35,425 nt of DNA. Source: Opitutus sp. GAS368 (GTDB lineage: Bacteria; Verrucomicrobiota; Verrucomicrobiia; Opitutales; Opitutaceae). Below the pieces are notes generated by a model, which was not told the DNA's origin, did no database searches, and worked only from the letters and a program-made list of their open reading frames with translations. The stretch lies in the NCBI GenBank assembly GCA_945874455.1, contig CAMCHO010000027.1, forward strand, positions 1-35,425. Reading direction: 5' to 3'. Below are positions 4,260-35,425 of the stretch, in pieces; positions within the stretch are counted from its first letter, which is position 1, and every line of letters starts with the position of its first letter. The position numbers and the translations under genes were made by a program.

Positions 4260-4658
4260 TCAGGGCTTCTTGGGCACTTCGGGAGCCGGCACAGTGGCTC
4301 CTGCCGGTGCGGCGGGCGCCGGAACCGTCAGAGGAACCGTCGTGGCGGGGGGCACCGGCGCGGCTGCGGGGACGGCGATCCTCGGCAACATACTGCCATC
4401 AGCCGCAGCGGCATGTTTACTCTCGTAGATGCGCCCAAGATAGAGCGCAAACGCCAAGACGAAAAACATCACAGCGGCGTAGATTGTCGATTTGCTCAAC
4501 ACGTTGCCCGTTTCGGCACCGAAGGCCGCTTCGGCGGCACCGCCGCCAAGAGCCGCGCCCATGCCGCCGTCTTTGGACTTCTGCGCCAAGACGACGAGCA
4601 CGATGAATAGCGAAACGAGGATGAGGACGAAGGTAAGAATTCCGAGGACGATGCTCAT
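4260..4658 (-). CDS. secG: Preprotein translocase subunit SecG
   Basis: Accessory subunit of the SecYEG protein-export channel in the inner membrane. The 132-residue protein has two membrane segments, about residues 3-25 and 58-76, joined by a loop with the family-typical Q-x-SKDGG-x-G block and Gly/Ala-rich GAALGGG, and then FGAETG. The C-terminal 50 residues are an Ala/Pro-rich, low-complexity extension absent from short SecG proteins of about 75-110 residues; it ends in PKKP. It is the first gene of a run with the LolA-like and HAD genes, separated from parB by 72 bases. No clear Shine-Dalgarno sequence precedes ATG 4658. Confidence 0.9.
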
Positions 4659-4730
4659 GTGAAAGGTTGAAATGAGCAGACGCGGGCGCGGGTTGTCAAT
4701 GGCACTCTCAGCACGTTTTTATCCACGGAC

Positions 4731-5657
4731 TCAGGCCTCCACGCCGAACTTCTCAAGGAGTCGCTGCAAGTCTTCGTTCCCCCGATATTCGATAACGATT
4801 CGACCCTTTTTCGGCGAGTGCAGCAGCGCCACCCGCGCACCCAGGTGCGACGTCAGCTTCTTTTCAATGCCAGCAACCGTCGCAGCATCCTTCGGCGTCA
4901 AGCCGCGCTTCGCAGGTTTCGCGGACGGACTTCCGTCGGAAGCTTTGGCTGATTGCGCGAGTTTTTCCGTGCTGCGGACGCTCAAGCCTTCCTCAATAAC
5001 ACGACGCGCGATGAGGGCGCGGCGCGCGGAATCCTCGACGCCCAGCAACACCTTCGCATGCCCGACACTGAGCAGGTTCTTGGCGACAAAACCCTGCAAT
5101 TCCCCTTCGAGAGAAAGCAGCCGAAGCGAATTTGCCACGCTGGCGCGCCCCTTGCCCACGCGCTCGGCAGCGGTTTCCTGCGTGAGGTCAAAATCGCGGA
5201 TCAGGCTGGCGTAGCCGTGCGCCTCTTCTATCGCGTTGAGCCCTTCTCGCTGTAAATTTTCGATCAAGCCGAGCGCTGCGGACGAGGCGTTGCTCGCCTG
5301 CACGATTCGCGCGGGAATGGTTTTAATCTTGAGCTGCTGGAAGGCGCGCCAACGACGCTCGCCGGCGATCAATTGAAACTTTTCGCCGTGCTTGCGAACC
5401 ACAATCGGCTGCAGGAGCCCCTCGGAGCGAATACTCTCGGCCAGTTCGCCAAGCTGTTCCGCAGGAATGTCACGGCGAGCTTGATACGGGCTCGGTTCGA
5501 TCAGGTGCACGGCGATCTCCAGATAGCCCGGTGCCACTGTCGCGGGGGCGGACGGCGGGGTCGCGGGTGACGGCGGAGTGATGACGGCGGTAGGCTTGCC
5601 GGCGGCGATGAGGCCGCCCAGGCCGCGACCGAGGCGGGATTTGGGTGCTGCGGACAT
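4731..5657 (-). CDS. parB: Chromosome-partitioning protein ParB
   Basis: Centromere-binding CTPase clamp that loads at parS sites and spreads to segregate chromosomes with ParA. The N-terminus has the LGRGLGGLI motif (interaction with ParA), followed by a Pro/Ala linker, then PYQARR near residue 57 and the CTP-binding GERRWRA at 99-105, then the helix-turn-helix (TQETAAERVGKGRASVANSL), a charged linker and a C-terminal dimerisation domain. At 308 residues the length is normal. ParA is not adjacent in this window. The ATG lies 3 bases after the stop of the LysM lipoprotein gene, so the two are co-transcribed and probably translationally coupled. No parS match is seen nearby. Confidence 0.95.
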   Translation of the reverse strand: MSAAPKSRLGRGLGGLIAAGKPTAVITPPSPATPPSAPATVAPGYLEIAVHLIEPSPYQARRDIPAEQLGELAESIRSEGLLQPIVVRKHGEKFQLIAGERRWRAFQQLKIKTIPARIVQASNASSAALGLIENLQREGLNAIEEAHGYASLIRDFDLTQETAAERVGKGRASVANSLRLLSLEGELQGFVAKNLLSVGHAKVLLGVEDSARRALIARRVIEEGLSVRSTEKLAQSAKASDGSPSAKPAKRGLTPKDAATVAGIEKKLTSHLGARVALLHSPKKGRIVIEYRGNEDLQRLLEKFGVEA

Positions 5658-25147: not shown

Positions 25148-26104
25148 TTATTTGAATCGGGCCCGGGCTTTGACGAATCGCGCGTAAACATCCTTCGCCG
25201 TCAAAAGCTTCAAATCTCCGACGGGAGCCTGCACCACCACATGCGTGGGCGCAGTCAGTGGATACGGTCCAAACAACCGCGGATCCGTCGGCCCGAAAAT
25301 GCCCACCACGCGCACCCCCAACGCCGCCGCCAAGTGCATCGGTCCGCTGTCGTTGGAAATCACCCAGTCCGCCCGCTTAATCAGCGCCGGCAGTGAAACC
25401 AGGCTGGTGTTGCCTGTGAGGTTAACGAATTGCTCCGCCGTATACGCTCCGCGGTCATGCACATAATTGCTCCCCGCCCAGACGACTTTACGGGTTTTGT
25501 CTTCGCGGAGGATCATTTCGGTGAGCTGCTTGAACCCACTCCAACATTTTTCAGCCCGCCGACTGTCGGGAAACATCACGATGGGCTTGGACCCGCCGCG
25601 CCCATCCGCGAAACGTAAATTCAGGCTGTCCACTTCGCGGAACTTTAACGTTCCCCGCAGCTCCGGTTTCCCTCCCAGCACGGGACAAAATTGCAGGAGA
25701 ATATCGATGGCGTGGCTCCGTTTTCCCTCTGGAGGCAACGCGACTTGCTCATCGTAAAACATCCCCGAGCACTCGCGAGCATCGCCGCGGCCCACTTTTT
25801 TCGTGGCGAAGGCGCGCGACGTCATCAGCCCCGTGCGGAGGAGACCCTGCATATCAAACACGAAATCAAACTTAGTTTTCCGAATCTCCTTCGTCAGCTT
25901 CAGAAACCCCTTAGCCCCAGCCGCCCGCTCAAAAACATAGACCTGATCGACCGCCTCACAGGCGCGCACGATCGGGGCAAACATCTCTCGCACCACCCAC
26001 GAGATACGGAGCCCCGCACATTGCGCCTTGAGCGAGGTCGCTACCTGCAAGGCATGCACGATGTCGCCGAGCGACGAGGGCTTGATGATGAGGATTTCGG
26101 TCAT
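25148..26104 (-). CDS. Glycosyltransferase family 9 (heptosyltransferase-like)
   Basis: A 318-residue GT-B glycosyltransferase, as used for adding heptose to lipopolysaccharide core from ADP-heptose on the inner face of the inner membrane. It starts MTEILIIKPSSLGDIVHALQ (family N-terminal motif), and the C-terminal nucleotide-sugar domain shows PDSRRAEKCW, GNTSLVSLPALI, NDSGPMHLAAALGV and GIFGPTDP, the hallmark of GT9. ATG 26104 is chosen over the frame opening at 26152, since the family motif begins there. No other LPS gene is adjacent, so the sugar and acceptor are unknown. It precedes serS on the same strand. Confidence 0.88.
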   Translation of the reverse strand: MTEILIIKPSSLGDIVHALQVATSLKAQCAGLRISWVVREMFAPIVRACEAVDQVYVFERAAGAKGFLKLTKEIRKTKFDFVFDMQGLLRTGLMTSRAFATKKVGRGDARECSGMFYDEQVALPPEGKRSHAIDILLQFCPVLGGKPELRGTLKFREVDSLNLRFADGRGGSKPIVMFPDSRRAEKCWSGFKQLTEMILREDKTRKVVWAGSNYVHDRGAYTAEQFVNLTGNTSLVSLPALIKRADWVISNDSGPMHLAAALGVRVVGIFGPTDPRLFGPYPLTAPTHVVVQAPVGDLKLLTAKDVYARFVKARARFK

Positions 26105-26461
26105 GGATACTTCGGAGGCTAAGGCAGAATCTGCGTTTAACCACGCGAACATTACGTTTCATGGTTTTTCCCGGCGGAAATCAAACGCCAAATCCCGGTC
26201 GATCGTTCGCGTGCTACTTTTTTCACTTAAATTACTCCGCTGGCTCCTCGCCCACACTCCCAAACCGCTCTCGCTCGCCACCCCCTTACCTCGGCCTCAG
26301 CCGCTGGCGCGAACAGCTCTTCTCCGCCGACGACAATCTCTGCTCTTCGTGGCTTTGGCCCACGTGCGCTGGGCCAACTCCGCAGACTGTAAAAACTGCA
26401 CCGGACCCTACGACAGCACCCGTCGATCCCGACGCTCACGTCCAACACCCGCAGTCACCGC
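26105..26461. other. Gap of about 357 bases with no recognised gene
   Basis: Reading frames here have no recognisable domain or start, and codon patterns are unlike neighbours. One plus-strand frame has LGLSRWREQLFSADDN, which I cannot match to a family. The GT9 promoter should be in the left part, since it faces away from the DUF1080 gene end. No hairpin with a T-run is evident after the DUF1080 stop. Confidence 0.4.
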
Positions 26462-27904
26462 CTACAGTTTCTTCACCTTAAAACTACGGAACTCCACGGG
26501 ATCGCTGTGCCCCGCGAAGCCGATGTGGCCTTTCGTGTGGTCGAGCCCTTTCGGCGGGGTCTTGATCTGACTGCGGTCGAAGGTCGCGATATCCACGTCG
26601 AGAATCTTGGTGCCATTCAGCGTGACCTTAATCTTCTGCCCCTGCACTTCGATCTCCTCGAAATTCCATTCGCCCACCGGGCGGAGGTATCCGTGCTTCG
26701 CCCCAACACAGTGGTACAGGGAACCGTGATACTGCGTGGGCTCGAGGCCTTTCTTTCCGGCGGCGGCTTGCTTCGCGTTGTAGCCGTCGCTGTCGATCAC
26801 TTGGATTTCCAGACCATCTTTCGAAGAATGCCCGCCGAGCGGCGTGCGGAGCGCAATGCCGTTGTTGCCGGCCGCGGGCAAGCGGAACTCGACGCGGATA
26901 ATGCCGTTTTCAAATTCATCGTTGGTCAAGAGGTCGCCGCCCTTGCCAGGCTTGCAGACGATCGCGCCGTTTTTCACTTCGTAGCTATCAAGGGAGCCCA
27001 TCCAGCCACTCAAATCTTTGCCGTTCACCTTTTCCACAAATCCCGCGTCCGCTCCGCGGCTGGCGAGGTCCCGGTTGGCCTCGTCAGCACCAATTTCGCG
27101 GATGAAGACATTGCGCCAACGGATCTCGCTGCCGTGGGTCTGGAGCTGAATCGGTCCCTTCGGAAACGCCGGATCGCGCATGAAACCGTTCGCCAGTTTT
27201 TGCGCTGGCTTGGCATCTTTGGCCGCTCCCGGCGCCGCGTAGGCGACATAGCCAGCCTTTTGGTTCGCAAAGAAATTTTCCAACACCGCGTTATCCACGA
27301 TCTTCTCGCCGTTGAAGATGATGGTGACGCGTTCGCCAATCATCCGGATGTGAAACCGATTCCACTCGCCAAACGGCCGGTCCATTTTTTTCGAAGGGTC
27401 TTTGCCGGCGCTACCTTTGCTGTTGTTCCACAGCCCGCCGGAGCCCTTGTCCTGGCCAAGCCCGCGCGCATCGCCCTTCGTCGTGTCCCAGATCTGCACC
27501 TGCGGGATCCCACGCAAATAAATGCCGCTGTCACCGTCGGGCAGCGCTTTGTAATCCACCATCAACTCAAAATCGCCGTAGTCTTTTTCGCTGGTGAGAT
27601 ACAAGCCCTTGCCGTCGTTGATCAGTTCACCCTTGGCCACGCTCCAGTGGGCGTTGACGTGTTCCGGTCCCGCCTTCCCCACCGGGAGGCCGCCCTCGAT
27701 AGACTTGCGTTTGTAGTCGGCGAGTTGCGCCGGCGTCATCGCCCAAAGCTCCGTGGGATTCTTGGTGCCCCAGCCATACCAGCCGGCCAAGTCCTTGCCG
27801 TTGAAGAGTGCGGAGAATCCCTTTGGCGGCGTGTTCTCCGCCGCAGGAGCGACCGATACGAGGGCAGACAGGAAGAGCAGAGCGCGAACGAGGGGGTGTT
27901 TCAT
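26462..27904 (-). CDS. Secreted tandem DUF1080 protein (3-keto-glycoside hydrolase/lyase-like)
   Basis: A 480-residue exported protein with a signal peptide (ALLFLSALVSVAPAAE). Two copies of the DUF1080 jelly-roll domain are visible: one opens GFSALFNGKDLAGW near residue 28 and ends near 265; the second opens FVEKVNGKDLSGW near 288 and runs to the end. Each has the inner D-S/G-x-x-L-R-G or N-G-x-x-L-R strand and a late DGxxI or NGTKILDVD segment. DUF1080 proteins are now known to include 3-keto-disaccharide hydrolases, acting with Gfo/Idh-type dehydrogenases that make the 3-keto sugar. That, plus two such dehydrogenases in the same operon, suggests it cleaves an oxidised glycoside in the periplasm. 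It is last in the run, 84 bases after the NagB-like gene. Confidence 0.85.
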   Translation of the reverse strand: MKHPLVRALLFLSALVSVAPAAENTPPKGFSALFNGKDLAGWYGWGTKNPTELWAMTPAQLADYKRKSIEGGLPVGKAGPEHVNAHWSVAKGELINDGKGLYLTSEKDYGDFELMVDYKALPDGDSGIYLRGIPQVQIWDTTKGDARGLGQDKGSGGLWNNSKGSAGKDPSKKMDRPFGEWNRFHIRMIGERVTIIFNGEKIVDNAVLENFFANQKAGYVAYAAPGAAKDAKPAQKLANGFMRDPAFPKGPIQLQTHGSEIRWRNVFIREIGADEANRDLASRGADAGFVEKVNGKDLSGWMGSLDSYEVKNGAIVCKPGKGGDLLTNDEFENGIIRVEFRLPAAGNNGIALRTPLGGHSSKDGLEIQVIDSDGYNAKQAAAGKKGLEPTQYHGSLYHCVGAKHGYLRPVGEWNFEEIEVQGQKIKVTLNGTKILDVDIATFDRSQIKTPPKGLDHTKGHIGFAGHSDPVEFRSFKVKKL

Positions 27905-27988
27905 GGCTAGGGAAGATAACCGGTTGTTTTTTTAGGAGGGGAAAGGTGACGGAATGATCTGGGCTCTGACAATCAGCGACCGCGGGGC

Positions 27989-28918
27989 TTAGTGCATCTC
28001 CACCTGACAGGAGCCGAGGCCGCCGCGGAAGAAATTGAACTGCACGTTGGGGTGATCGGCGAGCAGCGACATCGGCACAGCGCTGTCGGTGTAACGTTTT
28101 GAAATCATCAGGGTGGTGAGGCGTTGCCCAAATGGACTGTCATGAGTCCCCGCCTGCCAGATCGAAACTTTTTCCGCCTGCCAGGTCTCGGCCGGACCGA
28201 CTGTGAGTGCGCGGGTGGGCACCAGCGCAATGTTGCCGCCGCCGGAGGTGCGGGCGTTTTGCGCGAGCGTGACAGGGTGGAGATCGACGACCCGCGTGCC
28301 GAGTTGGCGATACTCCGCGGGCGACGGTGGCGCATCGCGATAGGCACCGGTGCGCCGGACGGGGTCGTTGAAGGCCCAATGCTTGGTGTCCCCCTGCCCG
28401 CCTTGCATCACCGCACACCGCACGCCCCGCCAGCTCTCGATATAACGCACGAGGTCGGCCTTCGGGAAATGCAGCTGGTCATCAGGCATCACGAGCTCCG
28501 GGCGGATGCGATTGAAACACAATTCCCGGTCCGCACGCTCAAAAGAAAGCGGATGCGTGATCGGCGCTTCTTTGCCGTCGAGAAACCATTCGTCCATGCC
28601 CCAGAAATGGGCGGATTTTAGGGATAGCCCGAGTTCGTTCACGATCCGCGCAACGAGCGGGAGCTGTTCCGTGGGTCCGATCGGGCCGCAAATGCCGACT
28701 GGATTATCGGCCGTCGATTGCCGCCAGGCCGTGATGTATTCGAGCGCTTCGGCGAGATAGAAATCTTCCAGCGTATCGTAGAAAACGATCTTGAATCCGT
28801 CGCGGGAAAGTCCGGCCATCGCCGCCGGCGTAAGGCGGGCGGCTTCTTCGATCAGCGCGTCGTCGAGCGTGGTGTAGTCCCACCAATCAGGGGCAATGGT
28901 ACTGAGTTTTCGGGGCAT
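27989..28918 (-). CDS. NagB-like amino-sugar-phosphate deaminase/isomerase with altered active loop
   Basis: A 309-residue relative of glucosamine-6-phosphate deaminase/6-phosphogluconolactonase. [10 protein letters not shown] aligns to the general-base Asp72 region of Escherichia coli NagB, and CGPIGPTEQ to the phosphate-binding loop. The catalytic loop reads [14 protein letters not shown] where NagB has GGVGNDGHIAFNEP: the His is kept, but the Asp paired with it becomes Thr and the Glu becomes Asp. It is also longer than NagB (266). The enzyme thus probably works on another amino-sugar phosphate or as isomerase. It is cytosolic, 39 bases after the amidase gene. Confidence 0.75.
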
Positions 28919-28957
28919 GGGTGTGAGGGTGTTCTGTGAAAAAATGGGAGGTATGAA

Positions 28958-29926
28958 CTATTCTTGAAACTTGATTTCACGCGTGGAGCGCTCCTGTCCG
29001 GTGCGCTGCGTGAGCGGACCGTAAAGTTCCGGCCGGCGGGCGCGAATCCAAAGACGGCCCGTCGCGTGCTCCAGCAGGCTCGCGTCCAAGTCTGCCACCA
29101 CCAGCGCATCGGCGGCGGCGGACGTCTCCGCGAGGATCCGGCCATACGGGTCGAGAATCATCGCGTTGCCGGTGCGGACTTCATCGTCGTCGATCCCGAC
29201 GCCATTGCTGAAAATGAGAAACAGGCCGTTGTCGTGCGCGCGGCTCGGCAACCAGCGCAGGAGCCAACCCCGCCCCTTGTCGCCAAGAAACTCGCGTTGA
29301 ATCGCCGCCGGATCGCGGTGGCGATCAGCCCACACGTGGCGCTCGATCAAACCCATCAGATGGGGATTCCGGCTGCGCACGGCACCGGTTTGGTGGGGCG
29401 CAATGAGGATCTCCGCACCCCGCAAGGCCGTCAGGCGGACATTTTCACCGATGTTGCAGTCGTAACAAATCAGCACGCCCACGCGGAACCCGTCCGGCAA
29501 ATCGAACACCGTGAACTCGCTGCCACTGCCCATCGCGGCGTGCTCGAAGGCGTGCAGTTTGCGATGGCGGTGCACCGTGCCGTCGGGCAGCGCCACGACG
29601 TAGCTGTTGTAGAACGTTCCGTCTGCGTCCGCTTCAAACCACCCCGCTCCAACAGAGAGTCCGTGCCGCCGGGCCAGCGCGATCAAACGTTGCGTGCTCG
29701 GCCCGGAGGGAATCGGTTCCGCCAGCGCAGCGAGTTGCTCCACGGTGAGATTGCGCACGAACCAATAACCGCTGACGCAACCCTCGGGGAAAATCACGAG
29801 TCGCACCCCTTGAGCCGCCGCCGTCGCCGTGAACGCCTCAATCTTCAGGAAATTCGCCGCGGGGTCGCCCGGCGCACTTTCAAACTGCACGGAGGCGACT
29901 CGGAGTTGACGGGGTGAGGATGACAT
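28958..29926 (-). CDS. Carbon-nitrogen hydrolase (nitrilase-superfamily amidase)
   Basis: A 322-residue cytosolic amidase. The Glu-Lys-Cys triad is visible: Glu in IFPEGCVSGYW (near 47), Lys in RHRKLHAFE and Cys in LICYDCNIGE, in the order and spacing of the family. The region after Cys has a long insertion (REFLGDKGRGWLLRWLP) not present in simple omega-amidases. ATG 29926 is taken; an in-frame upstream start at 29941 adds five residues. Position between the PIG-L and NagB-like genes implies that an amide of the same substrate is hydrolysed, but the substrate cannot be named. Confidence 0.85.
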   Translation of the reverse strand: MSSSPRQLRVASVQFESAPGDPAANFLKIEAFTATAAAQGVRLVIFPEGCVSGYWFVRNLTVEQLAALAEPIPSGPSTQRLIALARRHGLSVGAGWFEADADGTFYNSYVVALPDGTVHRHRKLHAFEHAAMGSGSEFTVFDLPDGFRVGVLICYDCNIGENVRLTALRGAEILIAPHQTGAVRSRNPHLMGLIERHVWADRHRDPAAIQREFLGDKGRGWLLRWLPSRAHDNGLFLIFSNGVGIDDDEVRTGNAMILDPYGRILAETSAAADALVVADLDASLLEHATGRLWIRARRPELYGPLTQRTGQERSTREIKFQE

Positions 29927-29955
29927 GGCGGCAGATAACAACGAGCGTTGAAAGA

Positions 29956-30756
29956 CTACCCTCGAGCAAGACTGCGCTCGTAGGCGGCATTGATCAGATA
30001 TTTTTTTCCGAGCGCGTCACCCAGCGGATCCGCGCCTTCCGCGCAAAATCCCAAGTGCGAGTGCCGGCGCCAACCCTCGGCGTGTGCAAAGCGGCGCGAT
30101 AAGCGGCCGACTTTTCGCGAGGTCGCCTCCATCTCACGCAGATAAGAGTTCATGCCCTGCGTGGATTGCAGCCAACGATGCTGGCTTTCATGGCAGGCGA
30201 GCGCGGCGAGTTTCGCCGGCTGCACCGAAGTTGTATCCACATACGCACCGGCCGTGACGCGCCGCCTCAGGGGGTCGATGAGACCGTGCGGCATAGCGTG
30301 GTAGACCGTGCAGGCACCGCCCCACGCAGCGCGCCGCGGGCGGGACACGAAATTCGGAATGCCCCGCGCGAAAGCTGCCGTCACCGCGAGCCGCGACACG
30401 TTCGTGTGATCCTCCATGTAATCCTGCGGCGAATGGGTCAGGACAATCGTCGGCTGCACCGCGCGCATCACCGCCGTCAGCGCCCGCAACAACGGCACGG
30501 AATAAACCACCTCCAGATCGTCCGCGTGGCTCTCGTGATACTGCGCGCCCAGCAACGCCGCCGCCCGCCGGGCCTCGTTACGTCGAATCCGGCGCAGCGC
30601 TGCCGCGCCGTGCACGAGACTCCCGCCGGAGCCGCTCGACACATTAAGATAATGCGTCGCCCAGCCGGCCTCGCGCAGCAAGCAGAGCGTCCCGGCCATC
30701 ACGAATTCAATGTCGTCCGGATGGGCGGCGATAGCCATGGCGACGGGCTTCGTCAT
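29956..30756 (-). CDS. PIG-L/LmbE-family N-deacetylase
   Basis: A 266-residue zinc-dependent deacetylase of the family that removes acetyl groups from GlcNAc-type sugars (PIG-L, MshB, BshB). The zinc motif AHPDD is at about residues 11-15; a second ligand His is in HSPQDYMEDHTN near 109. The size and the HPDD position are typical; the substrate is open. Its ATG overlaps the stop of the upstream oxidoreductase in ATGA, so the two are translationally coupled. With the NagB-like protein downstream it gives a deacetylate-then-deaminate pairing like NagA-NagB. Confidence 0.88.
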   Translation of the reverse strand: MTKPVAMAIAAHPDDIEFVMAGTLCLLREAGWATHYLNVSSGSGGSLVHGAAALRRIRRNEARRAAALLGAQYHESHADDLEVVYSVPLLRALTAVMRAVQPTIVLTHSPQDYMEDHTNVSRLAVTAAFARGIPNFVSRPRRAAWGGACTVYHAMPHGLIDPLRRRVTAGAYVDTTSVQPAKLAALACHESQHRWLQSTQGMNSYLREMEATSRKVGRLSRRFAHAEGWRRHSHLGFCAEGADPLGDALGKKYLINAAYERSLARG

Positions 30757-31787
30757 TGCAGCTCGGAGAGTTTGACCGTGCGATTTTCCCGCGCCGAGAG
30801 ATCGGCTGCCAGGACGGCGAAATGCGACTTCATCGCTTCAGTGAGCGACGTCAGCGGCATCTCTTCACTCCGGTCCATGGCTTCAAAGAACGTCTGGAAT
30901 TGCGCCTGATAGGGGTGATCCGACACGTCGCCCGAATCCAACATCTTCATCGAAAGTTCGCTCCACTTGCTCTTGTCCACGGCGAGGCGCGTCGAGTGAA
31001 ATTTATTGTCGAGCAGGCTGCCTTCGCTGCCGACGAGGTGCGTGTGTAGATAGTAGGGCTGGAGGCAGTCGATCACCGACGCGACTTTTCCCAGCGAGCC
31101 GTTGGCAAAGCGCAACACGCTCACACTCGTCGTCGGATACTGGTATTGCGCGAACACCGCATTCGCCGAACACGTCGAATGGCTCGTGACGCTCTCCACG
31201 TCGCCACCCATGCATAAAAGCAGGGCGTCGAGCGCGTGGCAGCCCGCGGAGAGCAGACTGCTGCCCCCCAACTCTTTTGAAGTATTCCAGCGAAACTGCC
31301 CATACCACGGACCGATGCCGTGGTAATAATCGACTTCGCCGTAGTGCAATTTACCCAGCAGCCCGCTATCGATGACCGCCTTCGTCGCAACCAGTTGACT
31401 CGAATAGCGGCATTCGAAACACACGCACGTTTTCACCCCCGCAGCCTTCACGGCCGCGCTGACCCGGTGGGCGTCAGCCAGCGACAACGAGATCGGCTTT
31501 TCGATGATGAGGTGCTTACCCGCTTTGGCCGCCGCGACGATCTGATCGGCGTGTTGATTCGGGTAACTGCACACGGAGATCACCTGCAGACTGGGATCTG
31601 CCAACATGGCGTCCAGATCGGTGTAACAGGTAATCTTGCCGCCATGCTGCGCGCTGAGCGCCGCCGCATCCTGCGGTCGTGAAGAATAGATCGCGGTGAC
31701 TTGCGCGAGCGAGGTCGCGTTGATGGCGGCGATGTGCGCACCGCTCACCCAGCCGTAACCGATGATGCCGACGTTATATTTTTTCAT
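30753..31787 (-). CDS. Gfo/Idh/MocA-family oxidoreductase (second in operon)
   Basis: A 344-residue NAD(P)-dependent sugar dehydrogenase. The N-terminal Rossmann domain has GIIGYGWVSG; the EKP motif (IIEKPISL, catalytic Lys) is near residue 97, and the C-terminal domain opens with the family's beta-sheet. The GGSSLLSAGCHALD segment keeps the His and Asp of the usual G-x-x-x-D-x-G-x-H-x-x-D. No signal peptide is present, so it is cytosolic. It starts 12 bases after the PfkB gene. Expected reactions are oxidation of a sugar or inositol hydroxyl, epimerisation, or redox-assisted glycoside cleavage. Confidence 0.9.
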   Translation of the reverse strand: MKKYNVGIIGYGWVSGAHIAAINATSLAQVTAIYSSRPQDAAALSAQHGGKITCYTDLDAMLADPSLQVISVCSYPNQHADQIVAAAKAGKHLIIEKPISLSLADAHRVSAAVKAAGVKTCVCFECRYSSQLVATKAVIDSGLLGKLHYGEVDYYHGIGPWYGQFRWNTSKELGGSSLLSAGCHALDALLLCMGGDVESVTSHSTCSANAVFAQYQYPTTSVSVLRFANGSLGKVASVIDCLQPYYLHTHLVGSEGSLLDNKFHSTRLAVDKSKWSELSMKMLDSGDVSDHPYQAQFQTFFEAMDRSEEMPLTSLTEAMKSHFAVLAADLSARENRTVKLSELQ

Positions 31788-31799
31788 AGGGTAAAGTGA

Positions 31800-32816
31800 T
31801 CAATCGAAAGACGCGCCATTGAACCCGAGCTGCTCGGCGAGTCGTCGGCACTCTTCAACCGGACGCAGACTAGCGGAGCAACGCGGATCGTAAAGCGAGG
31901 CAGCCGCCGCCGACACTCCGAGGCGCAAACTCTCGGCCACCGGCCAGTCCTCATGCACACCGAAGAGCACGCCCGCCGCAAACGCATCGCCGGCCCCGGC
32001 GGCGCCTCGGATATCTGCTGCCGGCACGCGCAGGCTCGGCTGCCACACTTCCGCCTCCCGGCTCGCCGCGAAGGCACCCTCTTCAAAGTGAATAAACACC
32101 CACTCGCGAACCCCCGCCTCCAGCAACGCCCGGGCCGCCACCCGGACCGCGTGCGGATCGAGCCGTTGCTCATTGCGCACCATCACGCCGGTGAGTTTTT
32201 CGGCCTCGAAGTCGTTCGCAAAAAAATAATCGACGTGGGGCAGCGACGGTGCGGCCACCGCCCGAAAACGTCCGCTGTGGTCGCTCACGCAGTCCGCCGA
32301 TGTCCGCAGTCCCGCGGCACGCGCACGCCGCAACACCTCCGCCGCTCCCGTCTGCCCATCGGCGGACAGCGCATCGAGCCGGTCGAGCAGCAACAGATAA
32401 CCGAGGTGGAAAATCTTGGCCGTCACCCCCGCAAACTCAAAGTGCTCCGGCCCGAGCAACGCGTTGGTGCCCCGTTGGTGAAAAAATGTCCGGCGGCCCG
32501 TGGTTCGCACCGTCATCACATCGGTATAACTGGTCGCGACCGTCGGCGTACGCTGGAGTTGCGCGACGTCGATGCGGTGGGCCGCGCAATCAGCCAAGAT
32601 GGCATCGCCGGTCTTATCATTTCCCACGAGACCGATTCCGGTCAGCGGAAACGGCGCACCGAGCAGCGCGAGATCCTTGAGTACGTTATACGCCGAGCCG
32701 CCGTTCCCGGACGTTTCCGCGAGAATCGAGGCCAACGCATCCTGCGCCGGCCACGCATCGATGATCTTTAGGTGATCCACGATCCAGTTGCCACCCGCGA
32801 TGATTCCGGAGCGCAT
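31800..32816 (-). CDS. PfkB-family carbohydrate kinase
   Basis: A 338-residue ribokinase-fold kinase. The N-terminal motif GGSAYNVLKDLALLG is near residue 39 and the C-terminal signature RGAAGAGDAFAAGVLFG near 268, with the catalytic Asp in GAGD. The family phosphorylates ribose, fructose-1-phosphate, tagatose-6-phosphate, KDG, 5-dehydro-2-deoxygluconate and others. Here an aldolase lies two genes upstream, as in tagatose or inositol operons in which the kinase product is cleaved. It begins 9 bases after the upstream oxidoreductase. Confidence 0.9.
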   Translation of the reverse strand: MRSGIIAGGNWIVDHLKIIDAWPAQDALASILAETSGNGGSAYNVLKDLALLGAPFPLTGIGLVGNDKTGDAILADCAAHRIDVAQLQRTPTVATSYTDVMTVRTTGRRTFFHQRGTNALLGPEHFEFAGVTAKIFHLGYLLLLDRLDALSADGQTGAAEVLRRARAAGLRTSADCVSDHSGRFRAVAAPSLPHVDYFFANDFEAEKLTGVMVRNEQRLDPHAVRVAARALLEAGVREWVFIHFEEGAFAASREAEVWQPSLRVPAADIRGAAGAGDAFAAGVLFGVHEDWPVAESLRLGVSAAAASLYDPRCSASLRPVEECRRLAEQLGFNGASFD

Positions 32817-32825
32817 CGCGAGGAT

Positions 32826-33971
32826 TTATGTGGGGACGACGACGCTCTGGTTGCGCTGCGACTCGAGCGCGGCGCTCCACCATTCGTGACTGGCGACGGC
32901 TTCGTCGGGCGTGGCGCAGCCAAACGCATCGCCTAATTTTCCAGCCCGCTCAGCCAGGAACGCGGCCCACATCTGCTGCATGAGATCGGGAAATCCCGGT
33001 TCAAAAATTCCACCGGTGATCGTCTTAAAGGGCATGGCGAAGCCGAGGTCTGTCTTCTCCCACCACTGCTCTTTATCGCGCCGGTAGGACCAAAATGTCT
33101 TCGGCTCTTTCGTCGAGTAACGCGCCCCGCGGTCCGTCCCCAAAATCTCGATATACCACGTGTTCGTCTCGGTGGGGGCCAGGCGCTTCATCTCAAGCGT
33201 CATCGGCACCCGGTCCTCGCCCAGCATCACTGTCGTGTGCAGCGCCGCGTTGTCCCACGTATCGCATGCCGTCTGGCCCCCGCGCCCATCCGGCCGCTGG
33301 GTGTAGATTTTTTGGAGCTGGGCGTAAACCGTCGCGGGCCGCCAACCCAGGCGCAGCGGGAGATGCGCGACGTGCAGTCCGAGATCCCCCATTACGCCCA
33401 CCTCGCCGCAGAAACGGTTCTGGCGTTTCCAATTCGCCGGCTTCGTGGGATCGAGGTCGCTCGAGTGGAGAAAGCCCGCCCGGATCTCCAGAATCCGTCC
33501 AAACGCGCCCGCCGCAGCGAGCCGCTGGAGGCGTTGCGCCCCGGGCAGAAAGGGAAACTCGGAGGACACCCGCACGAACCGACCGAGCTTCACTGCTTCA
33601 TCCCGAATCCGTCGCGCCGCCGCCAGATCGACGCCGAAGGGTTTTTCCGCCAGCAGGTCTTTGCCCGCGCGGAGCACGTCGAGGTAAATCGTTTCATGCA
33701 AATGGTGCGGCACCGCGACGTACACCACATCGACGTCCGCCCGCGCGAGCAGTTCGCGGTGATCCGCCGTGAGGCAGCGTACGGTCGGGACCTGACGAAA
33801 CCATCCCAGCACCTCGGGTTGGACATCGCACACGGCGACCAACTCCGCCTTCACCGGAAAATCCACCAAGGCAAACCACCGCGCAAACGCCGAGGCGGCT
33901 TCACGACCCATGAGGCCGCCGCCGATTATGCCGATGCGAACCGGCGCAGGGTGATGAGAGAGAGTTTCCAT
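32826..33971 (-). CDS. Gfo/Idh/MocA-family oxidoreductase (first in operon)
   Basis: A 381-residue dehydrogenase distinct from the one at 30753. The Rossmann motif IGIIGGGLMGREAA is near residue 13, the EKP motif (LAEKPFGVD) near 107, and the C-terminal sheet includes VGVMGDLGLHVAHLPLRLG, in which His is kept but the usual second Asp is replaced. It has a large C-terminal half with a Trp-rich strand (TFWSYRRDKEQWWEK) found in members that act on larger glycosides. The ATG is 11 bases after the aldolase stop. Substrate unknown. Confidence 0.88.
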   Translation of the reverse strand: METLSHHPAPVRIGIIGGGLMGREAASAFARWFALVDFPVKAELVAVCDVQPEVLGWFRQVPTVRCLTADHRELLARADVDVVYVAVPHHLHETIYLDVLRAGKDLLAEKPFGVDLAAARRIRDEAVKLGRFVRVSSEFPFLPGAQRLQRLAAAGAFGRILEIRAGFLHSSDLDPTKPANWKRQNRFCGEVGVMGDLGLHVAHLPLRLGWRPATVYAQLQKIYTQRPDGRGGQTACDTWDNAALHTTVMLGEDRVPMTLEMKRLAPTETNTWYIEILGTDRGARYSTKEPKTFWSYRRDKEQWWEKTDLGFAMPFKTITGGIFEPGFPDLMQQMWAAFLAERAGKLGDAFGCATPDEAVASHEWWSAALESQRNQSVVVPT

Positions 33972-33982
33972 GTTCAGTCGTT

Positions 33983-34819
33983 TCAGGTCGTTTTCAGGAA
34001 TGCCATCGCCGCCTCGACACTCGCGCCGTCGTGCACGACGGCCATCAGCGCGCGGGTGATGGCGGCGGGATTGGGGTGTTGGATGATATTGCGTCCATAG
34101 ACAATCCCCGTGGCGCCCTGAGCGATCAGCGCCACCGTGCGAGCAAGGAGTTCTTGCTCGGGCGCTTTGCCGCCGCCGCGTACGAGCACCGGAATGCCAC
34201 CGGCAGTTTCAATGATCTTGTGATAAATCGAAACATCGTCGGTGGGATCGGCCTTGATAATGTCGGCGCCCAACTCGACGGCCTGTCTCACGAGCGGGAT
34301 GATTTTTTCCGGATCGCCGTCGACCATGTAGCCGCCCGCGCGCGCATTGGGCTGAAACACCAGCGGCTCGATCATCAGCGGCATACCGTAGTGGTCGCAC
34401 TGCGGCTTTAAATGCAGGATATTGCGGATACACTGGTCCGCCACTTCCGGCTGATCGGGAATTCGAAACAGGTTCACCACAATGCAAGCCGCGTCGAGCC
34501 GCACCGCCTGGAGCACGGGCTCCTCGATCAACCGCGAGTAAAGCGCTCGCGGCAGCTCGGCACCGTAGACGTTGGCCACATCACTGCGCAGCACCAGCGC
34601 CGGCTTGGGCCGGAGCGGGAGTTTTTGGAGGTGCGGCGCTTGTCCGACAGTCAGCTGGATCGCGTCCGGTCCCGCGGCCACGAGCGTCGCGATCGTGCGC
34701 GGCATGTTTTCGATCCCGGCGAGAAACGTGCGTTCGTTAAAAAAACCGTGGTCGAGGGCGACATCGAAACAGCGGCCGGACGCGGGATTGAAGAGGCGAT
34801 GGTAGCGGGCGATTTTCAT
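33983..34819 (-). CDS. Class I (Schiff-base) aldolase of the DeoC/FbaB/LsrF family
   Basis: A 278-residue TIM-barrel aldolase. VALDHGFF near 20 and the phosphate-binding end (PVLVRGGGK near 213) are typical of the archaeal-type class I fructose-bisphosphate aldolase / LsrF group; the Schiff-base Lys is in IIKADPTD (about Lys189). The family cleaves ketose (bis)phosphates or adds dihydroxyacetone phosphate. Being first in an eight-gene run that includes a PfkB kinase, it probably splits the final phosphorylated ketose into two trioses. The promoter of the run must lie in 34820-35109. Confidence 0.85.
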   Translation of the reverse strand: MKIARYHRLFNPASGRCFDVALDHGFFNERTFLAGIENMPRTIATLVAAGPDAIQLTVGQAPHLQKLPLRPKPALVLRSDVANVYGAELPRALYSRLIEEPVLQAVRLDAACIVVNLFRIPDQPEVADQCIRNILHLKPQCDHYGMPLMIEPLVFQPNARAGGYMVDGDPEKIIPLVRQAVELGADIIKADPTDDVSIYHKIIETAGGIPVLVRGGGKAPEQELLARTVALIAQGATGIVYGRNIIQHPNPAAITRALMAVVHDGASVEAAMAFLKTT

Positions 34820-35109
34820 GAGGGATCAGGCGGAAAATATTCGCGGAAAGGCGGCGGTAGACAACGTGGCGACGCTCGCAGCAGCCGGGACACGACCGTA
34901 CTCGCCGAACAAGCGGAGGAAAGCGCGATGGTGCTCGTCGATCAACATGGGGAGATCGGAACGTTGGAAAGCACGAGAGCGCGTGGCAACCTTGATGAAA
35001 AACGCCGTGCAATCGTTCGCCCTCCGTTAGTTTTTTGAAAACGGTTAACGCGCGAAGGCCCCGATCATGTTGTCATCTTTGCGGCTCCAATCGTAATGAG
35101 CACGCACAC
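34820..35109 (-). promoter_or_regulatory. Leader/promoter region of the amino-sugar operon, with a weak operator-like site
   Basis: About 290 bases without a credible gene precede the aldolase start. TGAAAACGGTTAACG at 35036-35050 has the A-rich/CG-centred look of LacI-family or catabolite operator half-sites, but it is poorly symmetrical and not clearly a palindrome. I cannot point to confident -35/-10 boxes. The function of the region is inferred from position only. Confidence 0.3.
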
Positions 35110-35425
35110 TCACACCCAATCCGCGCAAAGCAGCTCCGCTTGCGCCAGGACCGTCTTCACCGCGGCCTCCTGCAAATCCGGCGGGTAGCCGGAGCGCCGG
35201 GCCCGAACTTGTTCACGATTGGCAGCGAAGTGCTCGCGGACCAACGGGCCCTGGCGTGCATCGACAGACTCAAGCAACCCTGCTTCCAATTCTCCATTCA
35301 TCTCACAGGGTTTTTGGCCCTGTAGACTCCACGCCCGCCACGCATCATTGACCAAATCCACCGCATTCGAGCTCATGCCCGCTCGCACCTGCTCCGCCAC
35401 GAACGCTTCGACCTTTTCCGCCAGC
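35110..35425 (-). CDS. ParD-like antitoxin, N-terminus cut by window edge
   Basis: The frame is open to the window edge, beginning LAEKVEAFVAEQVRAGM and continuing SSNAVDLVNDAWRAW, which matches the ParD-type ribbon-helix-helix core (helix, glycine turn, then the SAS-E-V-R-A-L-type helix). The tail (GELEAGLLESVDARQGPLVREHF) resembles toxin-binding arms of such antitoxins. About 105 residues are visible before TGA at 35110; some N-terminal residues are missing. A ParE toxin is not seen downstream on this strand in the remaining window, so either the toxin lies elsewhere or this is an orphan. Confidence 0.55.
   Translation of the reverse strand, partial: LAEKVEAFVAEQVRAGMSSNAVDLVNDAWRAWSLQGQKPCEMNGELEAGLLESVDARQGPLVREHFAANREQVRARRSGYPPDLQEAAVKTVLAQAELLCADWV

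Follow-up and report, generated by a model that had tools for sequence, protein, structure and literature searches.

An eight-gene operon of Opitutus pairing a PIG-L deacetylase with a NagB-like protein that has aspartate in place of the phosphate-site lysine: a possible route for N-acetylated hexosamines

A run of eight open reading frames (ORFs), all in the same direction on the minus strand, occupies positions 26462–34819 of a 35,425-nucleotide contig of Opitutus sp. GAS368 (CAMCHO010000027.1). The whole of this stretch, one contig among the 333 of a 5.07 Mb genome (G000), is hereafter called the window. The core of the system is P0002, a protein with a predicted NagB fold in which the lysine expected to bind the substrate phosphate appears to be replaced by aspartate; its gene recurrently has a PIG-L deacetylase gene as neighbour and, in some loci, a sugar kinase gene. 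We read the run, tentatively and at somewhat less than an even chance, as an operon that breaks down an N-acetylated hexosamine, namely N-acetylglucosamine (GlcNAc), N-acetylgalactosamine (GalNAc) or a glycoside of one of them, in which phosphorylation would come late.

A NagB-like protein with an apparently changed phosphate site

P0002 has no match in Pfam and scores 19.3 bits against TIGR00502 (nagB), short of the cut-off of 236.9. The best matches of its structure model (pLDDT 89.9) were glucosamine-6-phosphate deaminases (2bkv; Z 26.2, root mean square deviation (rmsd) 2.1 over 231 residues), and comparison with 1dea gave a Z of 25.4 and an rmsd of 2.8 over 237 residues. As modelled, the fold of P0002 is that of NagB.

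Active-site positions were compared across 42 rows of the P0002 family and 18 NagB rows, 8 or more of the latter being from the window's own genus and hence not independent. Asp72 and His143 of E. coli NagB are taken here to be catalytic, and Lys208 to bind the substrate phosphate. D109, which stands opposite Asp72, is present in all 42 family rows and all 18 NagB rows; so is H180, the NagB rows having been chosen by a motif containing that histidine. In the alignment to 7lqn, D260 lies opposite the GxxK lysine, and R223 opposite the arginine of NSR. Position 260 is aspartate throughout the 42 family rows, whereas all 18 NagB rows, of which 17 exceed the TIGR00502 cut-off, show the lysine of that motif. 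The pairing of D260 with this lysine rests on the HMMER alignment, since MAFFT sets the NagB lysine after a gap. Judged from these alignments, P0002 appears to keep two catalytic residues and to have an invariant Asp260 in place of the phosphate-site lysine, and an invariant acid at this site would argue against a 6-phosphate substrate. Loss of E. coli Asp141 (column 178) was dropped as a marker of the family because NagB rows vary there too. More NagB-like paralogues were seen in loci L218–L231, most with the motif GGIGIHGHVAFNEP; in these the GxxK lysine was not seen, nor was a PIG-L match found nearby.

Layout and integrity of the eight-gene unit

The genes are listed in their order from the 5' end of the operon.

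33983–34819, minus strand: P0008, DhnA/LsrF-type class I aldolase (PF01791, DeoC/LacD, 126 bits)
32826–33971, minus strand: P0007, GfoB, Gfo/Idh oxidoreductase (PF01408, 65.7 bits)
31800–32816, minus strand: P0006, PfkB sugar kinase, GAGD motif at residue 274 (PF00294, 109.1 bits)
30753–31787, minus strand: P0005, GfoA, Gfo/Idh oxidoreductase, EKP motif at 96 (PF01408, 93.2 bits)
29956–30756, minus strand: P0004, PIG-L deacetylase, HPDD motif at residue 12 (PF02585, 89.5 bits; cut-off 28.2)
28958–29941, minus strand: P0003, nitrilase-type C-N hydrolase, TTG start, an in-frame ATG giving 29926 (PF00795, 146.7 bits)
27989–28918, minus strand: P0002, NagB-like protein, core of the system (fold match, no Pfam family)
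26462–27904, minus strand: P0001, two PF06439 domains (DUF1080, 3-keto-disaccharide hydrolase; 267.4 bits, 2 stretches)

From aldolase to DUF1080, the intergenic gaps are 11, 9, 12, –4 (an ATGA overlap), 14, 39 and 84 bases, the gap between PIG-L and nitrilase becoming 29 instead of 14 bases if the in-frame ATG of the nitrilase gene is used. These ORF coordinates confirm the initial annotation, which had described eight co-directional genes with gaps of 9–84 bases and one ATGA overlap. The family names given there hold as well: Pfam backs seven of the eight (CN_hydrolase, PIG-L, PfkB, GFO_IDH_MocA twice, DeoC/LacD aldolase and PF06439 twice), and the relation of P0002 to NagB is backed by the fold. 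All NCBIfam matches of the eight proteins fall under the curated cut-offs, and P0001, whose N-terminus is hydrophobic and by eye resembles a signal peptide, has none. Scans of positions 26100–35425 returned 0 promoter-like sequences, against a mean of 2.2 in shuffles, and 10 terminator-like ones, no excess over a mean of 10.1. A possible minus-strand reading frame was seen by eye at 35110–35425; its end lies upstream of the aldolase gene, about 290 bases from the start codon.

The NagB-like gene is carried by 6 of the 9 genus genomes searched. Besides the window, the complete block is present in L039, L275, L276 and L278, with per-gene identities of 86–99%, and L277, a cut contig of 4272 bases, holds the NagB-like and DUF1080 genes. 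The ratio of nonsynonymous to synonymous substitution rates (dN/dS, against L275, L278 and L039) is 0.02–0.16 for each of the eight genes, indicating that purifying selection acts on all of them; because the ratio is low, the nitrilase and DUF1080 genes are maintained even though local. Past DUF1080 lies a heptosyltransferase-type gene (25148–26152), present in the window, L275 and L276; since no match to it turned up in L278 or L039, the block ends at DUF1080. The eight genes are one unit, as had been proposed, and the full set was seen in the genus only.

Spread of the NagB-like gene and its neighbours

P0002 was matched at E 1e-20 in 126 of 387 sampled genomes of the phylum, 9 of which hold only other paralogues, of about 30–37% identity, leaving 117 carriers (about 1e-50 or better). 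A profile scan of species genomes returned at least 569 relatives, the 80 retained belonging, by record titles, to Verrucomicrobia, Planctomycetes, Bacteroidota, Omnitrophota and Ignavibacteriales. Among the matches listed, the nearest named relatives are from Opitutaceae and other Verrucomicrobia metagenome-assembled genomes (MAGs). Within the family of Segetibacter koreensis, the gene is found in 4 of 195 genomes.

Neighbours were counted in 177 loci, on the same strand and within 5 kb, at an identity of at least 38% (at least 55% for GfoA, GfoB and aldolase); many of the loci are related, so that the counts are not of independent events. L118, L128 and L162, whose contigs are very near to those of other loci or equal to them in length, were kept among the 80 relatives and omitted here, from the gene calling and from the scan of neighbour ORFs. 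Clusters of neighbours were taken as connected components; the counts come from tblastn because greedy gene calling picked shadow ORFs in many loci, calling the NagB-like gene in 101 of 157. A PIG-L gene lay within range in 126 of the 177 loci, and no PIG-L match over 100 residues turned up in 14 loci of other NagB-like paralogues from the phylum, which served as controls. GfoA was within range in 29 loci, 27 of them with PIG-L, a Nuc_H_symport-type gene of the major facilitator superfamily (MFS) in 15, PfkB in 10 (one same-genus), glycoside hydrolase family GH20 in four, GfoB in three and aldolase in two. Nitrilase and DUF1080 were each within range in one locus, the same-genus L039 in both cases; under wider limits, a 46% relative of DUF1080 lies on the opposite strand in L051 and matches of 27–28% occur in L043.

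The linkage is layered: the PIG-L/NagB-like pair forms the core, to which GfoA is added in some loci as a third member, and the nitrilase and, in its present arrangement, DUF1080 are local additions. The initial annotation had taken the deacetylase and the NagB-like enzyme for partners, which these counts bear out. Its expectation that the families occur together elsewhere holds for PIG-L, for GfoA and, in L178 and L199, for aldolase, GfoB and PfkB; all eight were seen together in the genus only. The counts do not support amide hydrolysis as part of the route, nor DUF1080 as its conserved opening step, relatives of either gene at this range and strand being confined to a same-genus locus.

Neighbour ORFs within 4.5 kb numbered 243, of which 225 were of at most 720 amino acids and 193 were scanned with Pfam in two sets (97 and 96); the 32 set aside by hand include several PfkB genes known from tblastn, and the PfkB tallies of the scan are low. 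The tallies, which cover the commonest 25 of 117 and of 85 families, housekeeping ones (seryl-tRNA synthetase, RNase HII) included, were 8 and 6 for Gfo/Idh, 6 and 4 for AP_endonuc_2 and 5 and 2 for PfkB, with 12 for MFS_1 (second set), 3 for Mannitol_dh_C, and 2 each for ketohexokinase, GH20 and SGSH_C. Among planctomycete NagB-like loci, an FGGY kinase gene is near in L138 and PfkB in L154 and L186, and ketohexokinase PF25270 is near the pair in L114 and L115. Sugar kinases of three families thus adjoin P0002-type genes. A quick tree of the NagB-like family, built from 64 rows and placing L199 on a long branch, shows 11 changes of the kinase neighbourhood, which 16 rows have, and 3 of the aldolase neighbourhood, which 3 rows have; such changes do not separate gain from loss.

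GH20 adjoins the pair in L141, L144 (Segetibacter koreensis DSM 18137) and L198, all Bacteroidota by record title or family and each with an MFS gene too, and in L163. Mutual exclusion of GH20 and GfoA was considered and judged too thin to claim, the four GH20 loci being the only ones. The window genome has 32 PF06439 matches alongside no GH20 match.

The aldolase–GfoB–PfkB module

Relatives of the aldolase at E 1e-70 occur in 23 of the 387 phylum genomes. Across 20 fetched aldolase regions, GfoB adjoins in 14 and PfkB in 11, and a P0002-type gene at high identity was found in none; aldolase, GfoB and PfkB form a module of its own. This module is joined to the pair at three tree-separated places, namely the window, L178 (an Akkermansiaceae MAG, with aldolase, GfoB, PfkB, PIG-L and NagB-like genes) and L199. 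The latter, from the Segetibacter family of Bacteroidota, has the run Gfo, NagB-like, PIG-L (31%), aldolase (67%), GfoB (63%) and PfkB (44%), the Gfo at its head, 21% identical to GfoA, being no GfoA orthologue. As the modules are joined in different gene orders, linked function is favoured, though three cases are few.

Six aldolase–GfoB–PfkB loci (L260, L264, L265, L266, L267 and L269) have an oppositely oriented AraC-type match; an AP_endonuc_2 TIM-barrel gene lies ahead of the module in L264 and L266, and an FAD-linked oxidase and an Fe-S protein lie inside it in L265. These AraC-associated loci probably serve another ketose pathway. Other NagB-like paralogues, 28–31% identical to P0002 and in which the GxxK lysine was not seen, lie within a few kb of P0008 relatives (L258:9723–10949, L261:10864–11880, L262:5021–6202 and L263:9644–10585), with an amidohydrolase gene near in L261 and a class III aminotransferase gene in L258.

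Assignment of the other enzymes

P0004 belongs to the PIG-L/LmbE family, with PF02585 above its cut-off and an HPDD motif, and against BshB1, the bacillithiol deacetylase, it scores 86.8 bits, below the cut-off of 182.5. No amidohydrolase family, such as would denote nagA, is found by Pfam among the eight operon genes. The solved relatives of P0006 are YdjH (best), ketohexokinase and ribokinase, and its score against IolC is 58.9 bits (cut-off 300). Those closest to P0008 are MJ0400, LsrF and an archaeal fructose-bisphosphate (FBP) aldolase; K189 of P0008 (IIKAD) aligns with the lysine of MJ0400 and LsrF that presumably forms the Schiff base. Kinase and aldolase remain plausible as later steps, as first suggested.

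Both oxidoreductases stay below every curated NCBIfam cut-off. The best NCBIfam match of P0005 is inositol 2-dehydrogenase TIGR04380 (133.7 bits; cut-off 355), its solved relatives are PDB 3ezy and DgpA (7xr9), and it scores 44.9 bits against the BT_2159 3-dehydrogenase family (cut-off 650). P0007 scores 90.1 bits against levoglucosan dehydrogenase NF052479 (cut-off 650) and 20.6 bits against the BT_2158 3-dehydrogenase family (cut-off 750); its solved relative is PDB 6a3f, listed as a putative dehydrogenase. The unit does combine a PF06439 protein with Gfo/Idh enzymes, which is the gene content of 3-keto-glycoside cleavage.

Discussion

The reactions and the substrate that we infer for the operon are as follows. 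DUF1080, with Gfo/Idh redox chemistry, would free the sugar from a glycoside, as a local entry step; in other genomes GH20 might do so, GH20 and transporter genes adjoining the pair in some. P0004 would take the acetate off the N-acetylhexosamine, P0002 would isomerise and deaminate the free hexosamine to a ketohexose and ammonia, P0006 would phosphorylate the ketose, and P0008 would split the ketose phosphate. The main argument for late phosphorylation is that kinases of three families adjoin a NagB-like enzyme without the phosphate lysine. Of the amino-sugar pathway put forward in the initial annotation, this keeps the unit, the PIG-L/NagB-like partnership and the later kinase and aldolase, and finds no support for amide hydrolysis or a conserved DUF1080 step.

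Several observations weigh against this scheme. R223, opposite an arginine of NagB that is taken here to be a phosphate ligand, is present in all 42 family rows, the arginine column varying among the 18 NagB rows; an anion may therefore still be bound by P0002. The best solved relative of P0004, 5cgz, is a 4-oxalmesaconate hydratase and not a sugar deacetylase, diacetylchitobiose deacetylases and BshB coming after it. Kinase and aldolase genes adjoin the pair in a minority of loci, aldolase–GfoB–PfkB also occurs without a NagB-like gene, and co-occurrence at the genome level is weak (11 of the 23 aldolase genomes carry the NagB-like gene; Fisher p 0.065). The GH20 neighbourhood is not specific, since it was also seen at one of the 14 control loci (L230), and the window assembly, whose genome is without a GH20 match, offers no place for entry by a GH20 hexosaminidase. 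With phosphorylation placed late, neither Gfo enzyme has a firm role. Lastly, an anticorrelation of the NagB-like gene with nagA was expected and the opposite found: nagA is present in 106 of the 117 carriers and in 167 of 270 non-carriers (kinship ignored), of 6 further carriers, Bacteroidota for the most part, 5 have a nagA over the cut-off, and the window genome holds a NagB above that of TIGR00502. The system is therefore no simple replacement of the standard GlcNAc route, to which it could be connected. Where carriers already possess a GlcNAc route, GalNAc or a glycoside would be a fitting substrate, though the results do not separate GlcNAc from GalNAc. A weaker NagB-family match (4598–5194) and a partial Nuc_H_symport-type gene (15–473) in contig C47 of the window genome make up a possible second amino-sugar locus.

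The idle oxidoreductases would find employment if the sugar were oxidised early, GfoA converting the N-acetylated sugar, or its glycoside, to a 3-keto or another keto form, DUF1080 cleaving that form, PIG-L deacetylating the product, the NagB-like enzyme acting on a keto-amino sugar and GfoB reducing a later intermediate. Two Gfo enzymes with levoglucosan dehydrogenase matches in NCBIfam, one of them related to DgpA, share an operon with a double PF06439 protein; GfoA mostly comes with PIG-L where it is near the NagB-like gene; a non-orthologous Gfo heads the L199 run; and the window genome has PF06439 matches in number and none to GH20. Against these stand the facts that DUF1080 is not a conserved neighbour and that most PIG-L/NagB-like pairs have no GfoA nearby, and we regard this course as unlikely, if deserving of attention. 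It is also conceivable, though quite unlikely, that no single linear pathway exists and that two independent modules, PIG-L/NagB-like/GfoA and a general aldolase–GfoB–PfkB ketose module, share a promoter, with nitrilase and DUF1080 as cargo. The fetched aldolase regions, the AP_endonuc_2 gene ahead of the module in two of the loci and the weak genome-level co-occurrence agree with such independence, which sits poorly with the meeting of the modules in differing gene orders at three places in the tree and with the aldolase relatives that lie a few kb from further NagB-like paralogues.

Alternatively, the NagB-like and PIG-L proteins might assist the NagA route, their substrates being amino sugars that are phosphorylated or activated in some other way. 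This would agree with the nagA enrichment, with the conserved R223 and with the existence in relatives of NagB–PIG-L fusions with the GxxK lysine. It appears improbable to us in view of the invariant aspartate where the phosphate lysine is expected and of the three kinase families adjoining the pair, and the enrichment, being uncorrected, may merely reflect phylogeny. The operon might instead serve to degrade an aminocyclitol or a compound resembling inosamine, GfoA acting as a dehydrogenase of inositol type and PfkB as a kinase like IolC; this would agree with the best NCBIfam match of the former and the IolC match of the latter. Both scores are below their cut-offs, Pfam finds no other Iol-type families among the eight genes, and GH20 stands beside the pair in four loci, making this very improbable.

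Deacetylation and a NagB-fold enzyme are shared with the NagA–NagB GlcNAc route (TIGR00221, TIGR00502), from which the operon differs in having PIG-L in place of NagA and an additional sugar kinase gene, and in that P0002 lacks the phosphate lysine and scores far under the nagB cut-off. NagB and PIG-L domains are also brought together in fusion proteins, presumably those of PRK02122: L241 and L246 have long ORFs with a NagB part and, further on, the PIG-L HPDD motif, so that joining NagB to PIG-L is in itself no novelty. In these fusions the NagB part has the GxxK lysine and exceeds the TIGR00502 cut-off, whereas here the NagB-like protein is divergent and separate, as is PIG-L. Long ORFs with a NagB part were also seen in L242, L243, L245, L247 and L248, where HPDD was not found; all seven ORFs span 640–1022 amino acids. 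In the archaeal chitin route, diacetylchitobiose deacetylase is of the PIG-L family and a kinase precedes a SIS-type deaminase. The operon has in common with it a PIG-L-type deacetylase, diacetylchitobiose deacetylases being among the solved relatives of P0004, and differs in its NagB-fold protein, PfkB kinase and aldolase. DUF1080 and Gfo/Idh enzymes are those of 3-keto-glycoside cleavage, and systems of that kind (BT_2158/BT_2159) likewise encode both PF06439 domains and Gfo/Idh enzymes in a single operon; by contrast, neither Gfo here reaches the BT_2158/BT_2159 cut-offs, and DUF1080 is no conserved companion of the core.

In line with the initial annotation, which knew of no named pathway with this set, no paper describing it was found in the open-access literature, subscription journals being mostly outside that coverage; the passages of PMC5507952 consulted do not treat the set. 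What is new is a NagB-like family without the phosphate lysine that kinases of several families adjoin.

On a broader view, which is possible but doubtful, the operon would exemplify a widespread use of N-acetylhexosamines in which PIG-L and a phosphate-independent NagB-like deaminase yield a free ketohexose that is passed to exchangeable kinases and then to aldol cleavage; the P0002 family would then consist of NagB-fold enzymes that deaminate amino sugars lacking a phosphate, and other lysine-less NagB-like groups may share this property. Because aspartate stands where the phosphate-site lysine is expected, two purified proteins would suffice to test the claim. If it is true, a protein family without a Pfam entry, present in nearly a third of the sampled phylum genomes and with hundreds of relatives, would gain a function open to testing, and predictions of amino-sugar use would fall short for its carriers, which by record titles include Verrucomicrobiota, Planctomycetota and some Bacteroidota.

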